Assembly: GCA_014360645.1 (NCBI GenBank)
Contig: JACIXD010000002.1
Span: 186,001 to 250,000 of the forward strand
Length of the DNA stretch: 64,000 bases
Source of the DNA: Actinomycetota bacterium
Lineage (GTDB): Bacteria > Actinomycetota > Geothermincolia > Geothermincolales > RBG-13-55-18
Direction of reading: 5' to 3'
The position numbers and the translations under genes are program-made. Under the pieces are notes generated by a model. That model was not told the DNA's origin. It saw only the letters and a list, made by a program, of their open reading frames with translations, and ran no database searches. Shown one piece after another: positions 16,028-51,989 of this stretch (its first letter is position 1; each line of letters begins with the position of its first letter).

Positions 16028-16903
16028 ATGTCGCTCGAGGATAAGTGCATCATCACGGCGGCCTTGGCCGGAGCCGCGACCATGAAATCCCAGAACCCCG
16101 CGGTGCCCTATACCGTGGAGGAGTTCGTGGAGGAGGCCTACAAATGCTACAACGCGGGGTGCGCCATCGTCCACATCCACGCCCGCGACCCCGAAACGGG
16201 TCTTCCCACCGCGAGCATCGACGTGTTGCGCGAGATCGTCAAGGGGATCACCGAGAAATGCCCCATCGTCATCAACCTCTCCACCGCCATCGGCATCGGC
16301 GCCACCCCCGAGGAGCGCATCAACGTGGTGAAGCAGCTCAAGCCGGAGATGGCCTCCCTCAACACCAACTCCATGAACTTCGCCCTCGGGGACTGGAAGA
16401 ACCACGTGGTGCTGGGAGAGACGGTGTTTACCAACACCTTCCAGATGCTGGTCGATTTTGCAAAGGAGATGAAGGAGGCCGGGACCAAGCCGGAGCTCGA
16501 GGTCTATGACGTGGGCGGCATCTACAACACCCTCTTCGTCCGCCACCAGGGCATCTTCGTGGAGCCCCTGCACTACCAGTTCGTATGGGGGGTTCTGGGG
16601 GGTTGCTGGTTCGACCTCGGCAACTTCAAGCGCTTCATGGACCTCATCCCCGACGACGCCACCTGGAGCACCTGCGGCGTCGGCCCGGCGCAGTTCCGCG
16701 GCGCCTTCGTGGCCGCCCAGGAGGGCGGGCATATCCGCGTCGGCCTGGAGGACAACATCACCGTTAAGAAGGGCGTTCTGGCCAAGGGCTCGTACGAGCA
16801 GGTGGAGAAAGTGGTCAAGATCATCGAGCTCGCGGACCGCGAGCCGGCTACCCCCGACGAGGCGCGCCAGATCCTCGGCCTCAAGGGCGGGCCCGAGCTG
16901 TAG
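16028..16903 (+). CDS. beta-keto acid cleavage enzyme (BKACE, DUF849)
   Basis: A 291-residue TIM-barrel Zn enzyme of the 3-keto-5-aminohexanoate cleavage (Kce) family. These enzymes cleave a beta-keto acid with acetyl-CoA to give acetoacetate plus a new acyl-CoA. 'IVHIHARD' (~residues 45-52) holds the two Zn-binding histidines and 'VGLEDN' (~residue 241) the conserved Glu. Length is standard. AGGAGG sits 7 bases before ATG 16028. The exact substrate cannot be read; BKACE members act on many beta-keto acids. It stands alone on the plus strand, followed by duplicated terminators. Confidence 0.9.
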   Translation: MSLEDKCIITAALAGAATMKSQNPAVPYTVEEFVEEAYKCYNAGCAIVHIHARDPETGLPTASIDVLREIVKGITEKCPIVINLSTAIGIGATPEERINVVKQLKPEMASLNTNSMNFALGDWKNHVVLGETVFTNTFQMLVDFAKEMKEAGTKPELEVYDVGGIYNTLFVRHQGIFVEPLHYQFVWGVLGGCWFDLGNFKRFMDLIPDDATWSTCGVGPAQFRGAFVAAQEGGHIRVGLEDNITVKKGVLAKGSYEQVEKVVKIIELADREPATPDEARQILGLKGGPEL

Positions 16904-18889: not shown

Positions 18890-19080
18890 GCGCCGCAGGC
18901 GCTACGGTGCCGGTGCCTGTGCGGCGGGGTGTCATCCTTTATCGCGCGAGAGCCTGCATCGCGAAAGCGATAGCGCCGCAGGCGCTACGGTGTCCAGCGC
19001 TTAGGGGCTGGGGGCTATCGTTTCACAATCGACAGTCTGCATCGCGTAAGCGATAGCGCCGCAGGCGCTACGGTGTCCAG
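18890..19080. repeat. REP-like palindromic repeats, two full copies and one partial
   Basis: Two 44-bp copies (18954-18997 and 19037-19080, period 83) differ by one base in the first hairpin loop. Each has two small palindromes, ATCGCGaaAGCGAT-like and GCGCCGCAGGCGC. A partial copy holding only the second palindrome and its GCTACGGTG tail is at 18890-18909. A further stem GCCTGGAC/GTCCAGGC lies at 19082-19110. The array fills the gap between the FAD oxidoreductase promoter and the acyl-CoA synthetase stop, and no gene is seen in it. The pattern resembles REP/BIME elements. Confidence 0.85.
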
Positions 19081-19164
19081 TGCCTGGACGGAGCGTAGCG
19101 AGGTCCAGGCCTGGCACGCATACGCCCGCACATACAAAATGTCCCATGTCCGGGGCTGACCCCA

Positions 19165-49319: not shown

Positions 49320-50114
49320 TCACCGGTAGTCGGGGTCGCCCGGCAGGACCAGCTTCATGCGTCCGTCCTCCACCACCACCCGGGGAGAGACGGCGGTGAC
49401 CTCACGGCCGGCGGAGAAGGCCAGGGCCTCCTCTACGCTGGTAAATCCTGCCAGAGTCATAAGGTTGACCATGGTGGGAGGGAGCATGGCGAAGGTCCCT
49501 TCGCGGTTCCTCTCCAGCGCTTCCGACGGGGATATCCAGAGGTGACCGGTCACCTCCAGGTCGTCCTGCGCGGCCACCTGGCAGGGAGGTGCGGCGGCGA
49601 GGAAGAAACGGGTGTCGAAGCGTACGGGCATGATCTCGGGGGTGATCCAGTGCGCGAAGTACCGCAAGCGGTCCAGGGCAAGCTCGAGGCCCTCCCTGGC
49701 CACCATCTCCGTGAAGGTGAGGCTCCCCTCCCTGAGGGCCTCGCGATAGGCGGCGTAACGCCCCGCCGCCTCCCCGCGGCAGTCCACCATCTCGCCGTGG
49801 GCATCGCGGGCGAGGAGGATCCCGACCTCCTCGAAGGTCTCCCTTATCCCCGCCACCAGGATCCCCAGGGCCCTGGCCGGCGATGGAGCATCCGCGAGCA
49901 GGGACATGGCCTCGCCGGGTCCCATCCCCGCGCAGATGCCCGCCGCCTCTTCCCCGCAATCGGAGTCCTCCACCGTTCCGCCGGGAAAGACATGCATGTC
50001 GGCGGCAAAGTCGCTGTGCGCGCTTCGCCTGACCATGAGGACCTCGACCCCGCTACCGCCGGACGCGTCGCGCAGGAGCATGACCGAGGCTGCGTCCCTG
50101 GGTTCCGCTGGCAT
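49320..50114 (-). CDS. NUDIX hydrolase, NUDT7/NUDT19-like
   Basis: A 264-residue NUDIX protein. The helix motif 'IRETFEEVGILL' (REtfEEvGIL) gives the metal-binding Glu cluster; the preceding 'DMHVFPGGTVE' is the strand before the NUDIX box. An insert of about 35 residues separates the two, as in NUDT19-like (RP2p) hydrolases that act on CoA derivatives or nucleoside diphosphates. The start ATG 50114 has GGGAG 5 bases upstream; ATG 50138 has no ribosome site. A CoA-related substrate would match the acyl-CoA theme of the window, but that is inference. Confidence 0.85.
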   Translation of the reverse strand: MPAEPRDAASVMLLRDASGGSGVEVLMVRRSAHSDFAADMHVFPGGTVEDSDCGEEAAGICAGMGPGEAMSLLADAPSPARALGILVAGIRETFEEVGILLARDAHGEMVDCRGEAAGRYAAYREALREGSLTFTEMVAREGLELALDRLRYFAHWITPEIMPVRFDTRFFLAAAPPCQVAAQDDLEVTGHLWISPSEALERNREGTFAMLPPTMVNLMTLAGFTSVEEALAFSAGREVTAVSPRVVVEDGRMKLVLPGDPDYR

Positions 50115-50147
50115 ACCGTCTCCCTTCTCCTTCCCCATCTTAACATC

Positions 50148-50441
50148 TGGGGTCAGATCTATAGCTGTGTCATATGACGTTATCTTCGATCTTCGATACG
50201 TATTTGTTTACGGGGGTTCCGAAGGGGGGCGGTATGGGTTCAGGCATAAAGACGGGGGCGAATCGGGAAGTCATGGCAAATAATGGGGTACATCGACCTT
50301 CGATGGGGATCCGCTCGCGGGGGTTCAGGCACAAAGCCGAAGGCGAAAAGGGACTTCCCCGCTGGGGCGCGCAAGCATATATCGCCGTGACTCCACCGTC
50401 GACCTATGATACCGACATCGAAGATCGAAGATCTGACCCCA
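50148..50441. mobile_element. 294-bp MITE/REP-like element with 13-bp terminal inverted repeats
   Basis: Ends TGGGGTCAGATCT (50148-50160) and its exact complement (50429-50441). Inside, TCTTCGATCTTCGAT (left, ~50182-50196) is inverted as ATCGAAGATCGAAGA (right, ~50417-50431). GGTTCAGGCATAAAG and GGTTCAGGCACAAAG are internal direct repeats. No protein is encoded. It fills the gap between guaA (stop 50445) and the NUDIX start (50114). TGGGGTCAG-type ends are reminiscent of REP sequences mobilised by Y1 (RAYT) transposases, which is from memory; no transposase is in the window. Confidence 0.8.
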
Positions 50442-50444
50442 CCG

Positions 50445-51989
50445 TCATTCCCACTCGATGGTGGCGGGAGGCTTGGAGGAGATGTCCAGGACCACGCGGT
50501 TCACGCCCTTGACCTCGTTGATCACCCGGCTGGAGATGCGCTCCATGACCTCGTAGGGGAGACGCGCCCAGTCTGCGGTCATGGCGTCCTCGCTGGTGAC
50601 GGCGCGCACCACGATGGGGTAGGCGTAGGTGCGCTCGTCCCCCATCACCCCCACCGACTTGATGTCCGGCAGCACGGCGAAGGACTGCCATATCTCCCGG
50701 TAGAGGCCGGCGCGCTTGATCTCCTCCACCACGATCTCGTCCGCGTCGCGCAGGATGGCCAGCTTCTCCGCCGTCACCTCGCCGATGATGCGGATGGCCA
50801 GACCGGGCCCCGGAAAGGGCTGGCGCCACACGATCTCCTCCGGCAACCCCAACTCCTCCCCCACCGCGCGTACCTCGTCCTTGAAGAGGTTGCGCAGGGG
50901 CTCCACCAGGGTGAAATCCATGTCCTCGGGCAGGCCCCCCACGTTGTGATGGGACTTGATGCGGGCGGCGTCGCGGGTGCCGCTCTCGATGATGTCCGGA
51001 TACAGGGTGCCCTGGACCAGGAAATGGGTGTCCTTCATCTCCCGCGCCACCTCCTCGAAGACGCGGATGAACTCCTCCCCGATGGCCTTGCGCTTGACCT
51101 CGGGGTCGGTGACCCCCTCCAGGCGGCGGAGGAAGCGGTCCTGGGCCTTGACGTGGACGAGGTTCATATGGAAGTGACGCCGGAAGGTGTCCTCCACCTG
51201 CTCGGCTTCTCCTTTGCGCAGCAGGCCGTGGTCCACGAAGACGCAGGTGAGCTGGTCGCCCACCGCCTTGTGCACCAGCACCGCCGCGGTGGCGGAATCA
51301 ACCCCGCCCGAGAGGCCGCAGATGATCTTGTTCTCCCCCACCTGCTCGCGCACCTCGGACACCGCCTCCTCGATGATGGAGACCATGGTCCAGGTGGGCA
51401 GGAGGTCGGCAGCCGTAAAGAGGAAGTTCTTGAGGATCTCCTTGCCCAGTGGAGTGTGGATGACCTCGGGATGGAACTGCACCCCGTACAGCCCGCGCGC
51501 GGGGTCCTCCATTGCCGCGACCGGCGAGGAGGCGGTGGTGGCGGTGACCCTGAAGCCGCTCGGGGATTGCACCACCGTGTCCCCATGGCTCATCCATACC
51601 GTCTGGTGCAGGGGCAGGCCGTCGAAGAGCGCGCTCTCCCCCACGATGTCTAGCTCCGTCTTGCCGTACTCCCTTATCCCTGTGGCTTCCACCCGTCCCC
51701 CAAGCTCGCGGGCCAGCAACTGGTGCCCGTAGCAGATGCCCAGGATGGGAAGGCCCATGGACAGGATCTCGGGGTGGGGACGCGGCGCTCCCTCCTGGTA
51801 AACACTGGAAGGACCGCCGGAGAAGATCAGCGCCCTCGCGCCGCGTCTCCTTATCTCCTCCGGGGAGATGTCGTGAGGCACGATCTCGGAATAGACCCTG
51901 CATTCCCTCACCCTGCGGGCGATGAGCTGTGCGTACTGAGCCCCGAAGTCGACCACCAGCACGCTTTCCCTCGTTCCGGTGCTCAACAT
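50445..51989 (-). CDS. guaA: GMP synthase (glutamine-hydrolysing)
   Basis: A 514-residue GuaA converting XMP to GMP with ATP and glutamine. The class-I amidotransferase half has '[17 protein letters not shown]', the nucleophile loop '[13 protein letters not shown]' and 'GVQFHPEV'. The ATP-pyrophosphatase half has the P-loop '[18 protein letters not shown]', and the C-terminal dimerisation domain ends '[18 protein letters not shown]'. Full length. A TTG at 51986 has better ribosome-site spacing than the ATG, a difference of one residue. It is downstream of guaB3 with a 46-bp gap, so probably cotranscribed. Confidence 0.97.

Follow-up and report, generated by a model that had tools for sequence, protein, structure and literature searches.

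A composite GGGGTC-ended repeat beside guaA in an actinomycetote genome, very probably of the TIRYT type

Results

The 294-bp sequence at positions 50148-50441, which lies between guaA and a NUDIX-domain protein gene, is very probably a non-autonomous composite member of the TIR family of a TIRYT-type Y1 HUH transposase (RAYT group 1, or subclass 2.1). The family is dispersed in the genome, often as inward-facing pairs and mostly between genes, and the same inverted ends flank its own transposase gene. The kind of system is already known, and the pairing of transposase and repeat is unusually clear here. New are an end consensus that extends across phyla, reciprocal repeat populations in different genomes and, as a suggestive observation, a direct repeat of 7 nt within the variable portion of the ends. 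The window is the whole stretch of 64,000 nucleotides that was analyzed, G000:C2:186001-250000, where G000 is the source genome, a 3.38-Mb assembly of 34 contigs (C1, C2, and so on).

Structure and surroundings of the element

The features of the element and its two neighbors are listed by window position, strand, and description.

49320..50138, minus strand: NUDIX-domain protein gene, the neighbor on the side opposite guaA; a start at 50114 is also possible
50148..50198, plus strand: left end, long variant, composed of T and the core GGGGTCAGATC (50149-50159), an insert (50160-50184), and TTCGATC TTCGATA (50185-50198)
50199..50270, plus strand: left subterminal region, assigned from the relation of its first part to other genome copies and from the direct repeats D1 and D2
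50285..50304, plus strand: degenerate internal third end GGGGTACATCGACCTTCGAT, assigned from its sequence, alignments, and D1/D2
50416..50441, minus strand: right end, standard form, composed of the core GGGGTCAGATC (50430-50440) and TTCGATC TTCGATG; exact matches at C2:236424-236440 and C2:236419-236440
50445..51989, minus strand: guaA (GMP synthase), with its stop 3 bases from the element end at 50441

As the original prediction had stated, the element has perfect 13-bp inverted ends, found in the inverted-repeat analysis of the window as the arms TGGGGTCAGATCT at 50148-50160 and 50429-50441, and it ends 3 bases from the guaA stop. The second inverted block described there is also present, as a perfect 16-nt arm pair ATCTTCGATCTTCGAT at 50182-50197 and 50417-50432, but its left arm is displaced by the 25-nt insert at 50160-50184 and not by about 22 bases. 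These 16 nt form the longest perfect inverted repeat in the segment 50050-50550, a length reached by none of 1000 dinucleotide shuffles of this segment (the maximum was 14 nt, seen once, and 13 nt or more occurred in 2 of the 1000). The internal direct repeats reported earlier are D1 (50236-50268 and 50321-50353, 82%) and D2 (50186-50219 and 50293-50326, 74%); they exist because the degenerate third end at 50285-50304 starts a second left half.

Three ends make up the 294 bp: the long variant on the left, the degenerate copy inside, and the standard form on the right. In other words, the window copy is a pair of about 157 bp, from the internal degenerate end to the right end, with an extra left half in front, and this extra half resembles same-direction neighbor copies elsewhere in the genome. 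Thus, of the compact mobile-like element proposed originally, the mobile-type repeat with other copies stands, but it is a composite of three end copies and not one unit. The insert of the long-variant left end recurs at five other places in the fetched stretches, and the similarity search gave genome matches of the long variant at C1:34088, C4:73242, C25:356, and C16:21440. The matches to the left subterminal region at C18:6682, C4:101136, and C4:387 reach query positions 53-102 (about 50182-50231 of the window).

The element appears to be non-coding, judging only from the list of open reading frames and from its repeat nature. Folding, one of the checks proposed with the original prediction, showed that both strands fold better than shuffled sequences (z of -3.97 for DNA and -4.21 for RNA), as is bound to be the case for inverted ends. 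An Rfam scan around the element found no family at it; the single match elsewhere in the stretch (E 0.3) is a chance one. Among the 25 guaA loci fetched, including the own one, the NUDIX gene stands beside guaA in the relatives G001 and G009 only. A clean insertion that spared guaA, as originally suggested, is unsupported: the element is missing from G001 and G009, but their spacers, about 150-165 bp long, are unalignable to the flanks of the element, and no exact empty site was found in the guaA loci of relatives. A putative effect of the element on the expression of guaA or of the NUDIX gene would be secondary.

A dispersed repeat family

The number of copies found depends on the pattern used. 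The pattern GGGGTCAGATCTTCGAT has 107 genome copies at no more than two mismatches; at no more than three mismatches, GGGGTCNNATCTTCNATCTTCG has 132 copies and the nearly identical GGGGTCNNATCTTCGATCTTCG has 129, and the reversed-pattern controls gave 0 copies in G000 for all three. The original prediction had named the lack of other copies in the genome and of related elements in relatives as evidence against it; instead, copies are abundant (129-132 at up to three mismatches) and relatives carry related repeats.

The arrangement of copies was analyzed for the set of 129, located in 29 fetched stretches and the window (417,516 bases in total), the stretches being chosen where copies had been listed. 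This set contains 64 neighbor pairs closer than 450 bp, of which 29 face inward (+-), 19 are ++, 11 are --, and five face outward (-+). Only 23 of the 129 copy midpoints fall within predicted coding sequence, compared to a coding fraction of 0.738 by rough open reading frame calls in the fetched stretches. Of the 129 copies, 80 have T and 35 have C as the base preceding the end. Positions 7-8 are occupied by AG (47 copies), AC (39), GT (28), GC (6), AT (4), TG (2), TC (2), or GG (1), and inspection of the pairs by eye revealed no fixed left/right rule for this dinucleotide. The search for target-site duplications, also proposed originally, gave a negative result: duplications of 1-9 nt showed no excess over chance in 27 pairs (of 30, three near-duplicates having been dropped). 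By position frequencies the 129 copies start with GGGGTC, and no GTAG or GTGG consensus of the GT[AG]G head was seen. The string GGGGTCAGGTCTTG had no occurrence in the literature searched.

The probable cognate Y1 transposase gene

The genome encodes two Y1_Tnp proteins, with PF01797 scores of 44.9 bits at C16 and 36.7 bits at C1 (cut-off 23). The gene C16:15890-16843 sits in the densest cluster of repeat copies and is flanked by the family ends, a plus-strand one 116 bp upstream and minus-strand ones 120 and 237 bp downstream. These adjoining ends carry AC and AT at positions 7-8, unlike the AG form of the window. The original prediction of REP-like ends served by a Y1 transposase is borne out as far as the enzyme is concerned, since a Y1 gene of the REP-associated type was found in the same genome between the same ends, but the ends themselves are GGGGTC TIRs of the TIRYT type and not GTAG palindromic REPs.

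The catalytic HYH and Y-x-x-x-NP motifs are invariant in 18 of 18 proteins, the own one included. The C16 protein scores 71 bits against the NCBIfam model of REP-associated transposases NF047646, whose cut-off is 80. C-terminal HTH matches are likewise below the cut-off, both for C16 (HTH_23, 23.8 bits, cut-off 24.6) and for C1 (Bac_DnaA_C, 22.9 bits, cut-off 31.5). The predicted fold of L082, the nearest named relative of the C16 protein, has a pLDDT of 91.5 and contains C-terminal helices; its best Foldseek match is 4er8, TnpA_REP with a REP hairpin (E 2.7e-7), which by sequence is a borderline match (E 0.0097).

The C16 open reading frame (L051) at about 16754-16843 enters two copies of its own repeat, both in the same direction, so that part of its final residues is encoded by them, and most proteins related to the C16 transposase align only to about residue 280. 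As repeat copies lie inside the 3' end of the frame, the C16 transposase may be decaying.

Ends of related transposases in many phyla

The best 80 of 421 relatives of the C16 transposase were kept; they come from many phyla, the nearest named being Candidatus Solincola and other Actinomycetota. Of the 80 loci, 75 carry one or more correctly oriented ends GGGGTC[AG]N[AG][TC]C; the exceptions are L100, L103, L109, L151, and L160. GGGGTC is strongly oriented in the 80 loci, with 98 plus versus 7 minus occurrences upstream and 88 minus versus 15 plus downstream, and within 600/800 bp it was observed 230 times, whereas 73 occurrences are expected by base composition. The consensus of 150 ends is GGGGTCAGGTC, in which the search pattern dictates positions 1-6 and 11, A is found at position 7 in 145 ends, G at position 8 in 119 and at position 9 in 135, and the later part is variable.

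The end sequence follows the transposase. At positions 12-22, the similarity of upstream and downstream ends of a locus is 0.86, compared to 0.51 after permutation (56 loci). Where the nearest other protein is less than 60% identical (11 loci), own ends have a similarity of 0.81 and those of the nearest other locus 0.52. The Mantel correlation between end and protein similarity is 0.42 for 68 loci, the largest value in 1000 permutations being 0.17; related ends share descent and are not independent samples. The protein tree joins the own gene first to L082 (98/80) and next to L083 (100/98). The ends are TTCGATC TTCGGTT for L082 and TTCACTT TTTCCTC for L083; these two loci seem to be the G009 and G001 genes themselves, respectively, and thus are not independent of them.

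Repeat populations in other genomes

The same relation was seen at the level of whole repeat populations, some of the assemblies compared being fragmented. The congener G001, whose transposase is 66% identical, contains 183 copies of its own variant GGGGTCNNATCTTCACTTTTTCC, which has 0 copies in G000, G002, and G009. The G000 pattern, in turn, has 10 weak matches in G001 (two or three mismatches), 0 in G002, 44 in G009, 29 in G006, 19 in G013, and 23 in G012. Hence the congeners G000 and G001 hold nearly exclusive repeat populations. In G007, the end of the own transposase occurs in 61 copies, 47 of them exact, and most of the 62 matches listed for G012 carry its own TTTCATTTTGCATAC.

Three genomes count against the pairing. 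G002 possesses a transposase, but its own end occurs in six copies only; G006, with 29 copies, has no transposase match at E <= 0.001; and in G013, with 19 copies, the ends of the one fetched transposase differ. The mismatch in G006 and G013 implies that copies outlive a visible cognate gene or lack it. The TTCGATC repeats of these two family members could be relics or result from movement in trans.

The variable part of the ends

In 111 unique ends, self-similarity of the sequence at lag 7 is 0.480 compared to 0.398 (z 6.7), and lags 5 and 8 are raised too (z 4.2 and 4.1), these z values being inflated by the common descent of the ends. Of 123 unique ends, 21 repeat an exact 4-letter word at lag 7 (six different words in all), compared to 0-2 at other lags. 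Another 16 ends, taken from more distant genes, gave a weak signal (lag 7, P 0.022; lag 4, P 0.003; at least 5 of 7 letters in 4 of the 16); they were hand-picked from 40 rows for the GGGGTC core (one has AGGGTC), leaving out rows without such an end, one palindromic end (L243), the C16 gene itself, and loci that occurred more than once. A symmetric hairpin within the end has no consistent axis, the largest z being 3.6 at one axis.

We tentatively suggest, as a possibility less likely than not, that the ends are bipartite, with a constant core GGGGTCAGRTC and a specificity part read by the enzyme, in many cases a word repeated with a period of 7 nt (TTCGATC TTCGATG), changes of which would give each species a private repeat population. 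If so, G000 (129-132 copies, TTCGATC-TTCG) and G001 (183 copies, TTCACTT-TTTCC) would lend themselves as a pair to mapping of the specificity code.

In the Uhrbacteria/Patescibacteria branch (L095, L108, L113, L115, L131, L134, and L143), the variable part has more G and C and in many cases contains a doubled word, for instance, CGGAATT CGGAATT or GGGAATC GGGAATT.

Discussion

Relation to known systems

The comparisons below refer to the available parts of three publications, Di Nocera 2013 (PMC3733652), Quentin 2018 (PMC6006769), and Nunvar 2010 (PMC2817692). RAYT-like genes flanked by TIRs with the motif GGGGWSAS and accompanied by related dispersed families were described under the names TIRtron and TIRYT (PMC3733652). 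As there, we observe a Y1 gene with inverted terminal repeats, dimers and clusters elsewhere in the genome, and no GTAG head. The window ends GGGGTCAG fit GGGGWSAS, as do 86 of the 129 own copies at positions 7-8 (AG or AC). Thus the window repeat shows the TIRtron features tested, namely the Y1 gene, the flanking inverted ends, the end motif, and the dimers and clusters. It differs from the TIRtrons of those parts of PMC3733652 in that many ends have GGGGTCGT or GGGGTCAT instead of GGGGWSAS, in that there are about 130 copies with a longer shared core GGGGTCAGRTC followed by a variable part, and in the host, Solincola-like Actinomycetota not being met there.

In the classification of PMC6006769, 20 of 26 TIRYTs belong to the TnpA_Y1 subclass 2.1, which has HTH C-termini and corresponds to RAYT group 1 of Bertels 2017 (as given in PMC6006769). 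The Y1 core with Y-x-x-x-NP agrees with this subclass, the C-terminal HTH matches being below the cut-off here. According to the same source, neither automatic nor manual search found REP-like sequences near subclass 2.1 genes, and the link to TIRYTs needs further analysis; in contrast, oriented ends accompany 75 of the 80 loci analyzed here. With the REP/BIME systems of TnpA_REP/RAYT (PMC2817692) the family shares the Y1 gene between two inverted repeats, the non-autonomous pairs, and the co-variation of repeat and enzyme, but it has neither the GT[AG]G head nor a self-complementary unit of the REP type. The HUH Y1 catalytic core and the absence of target duplication are common to IS200/IS605 elements; the latter are described as having no terminal inverted repeats (PMC2817692), whereas here such repeats define the family.

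Since cognate ends are visible in most of the 80 loci, they offer a substrate that can be tested with enzymes whose DNA target had been in question, and the link between ends and enzymes can be used to annotate repeats of this sort elsewhere.

Proposed mechanism and alternative explanations

By analogy with IS200/IS605 and TnpA_REP, two inward-facing ends would pair into a long stem, and the transposase, acting on single strands, would recognize the GGGGTC ends, probably in the folded single-stranded form that results from pairing of the inverted ends. Cleavage may occur next to GGGGTC by tyrosine chemistry of the IS200/IS605 type, without target duplication. The pair would then be moved or copied, which could account for the spread of end pairs and clusters. 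The analysis revealed neither a transposition event nor an excision product, and no exact empty site. Also at odds with the main reading are the variation of the own ends at positions 7-8, the difference between the AG form in the window and the AC and AT ends beside the C16 gene, the atypical long left end of the element, and the repeat copies within the 3' end of the transposase frame.

An RNA or DNA structure selected for its use to the host, namely a hairpin in the guaA-NUDIX spacer that serves transcript ends or processing, would agree with the folding of both strands and with the mostly intergenic copies. We nevertheless regard it as improbable, as G001 and G009, the two relatives that share this gene pair, lack the element, the copies occupy spacers between genes of every relative orientation, and the element has no Rfam match. 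Still less probable is a classical REP/BIME, a GTAG-headed palindrome served by a TnpA_REP of the gammaproteobacterial type: a Y1 of the RAYT superfamily is present, the repeats are paired and clustered, and the closest fold is that of TnpA_REP, but the paired region is formed by two ends and not by one unit, the NF047646 score is under its cut-off, and the available part of Quentin 2018 (PMC6006769) places HTH-bearing enzymes in a subclass without REP-like sequences. Together, the GGGGTC start and the missing GT[AG]G head largely refute this reading at the level of sequence.

The TIRs and the non-coding body also resemble a MITE of a DDE transposase, whose TIRs would merely happen to lie near a Y1 gene. 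This is the least probable of the alternatives and was rejected, as the 27 pairs show no target-site duplication of 1-9 nt above chance, and as Y1 genes are flanked by the end core of this family in 75 of 80 loci, its sequence changing with that of the Y1 protein.

A second repeat family

The second Y1 gene, C1:131343-132335, is flanked by a 31-bp inverted repeat of another family, whose core GGGGTCAGCCCCGGACATGGGACA has 94 genome copies, 79 of them exact, and 0 in the control. Both Y1 genes of the genome thus have their own repeat population. The window contains a single copy:

19140..19163, minus strand: second-family copy GGGGTCAGCCCCGGACATGGGACA

Beside this copy, an exact 31-nt direct repeat GCGATAGCGCCGCAGGCGCTACGGTGTCCAG is found at 18967-18997 and 19050-19080; these are two copies within the window, where none is expected.
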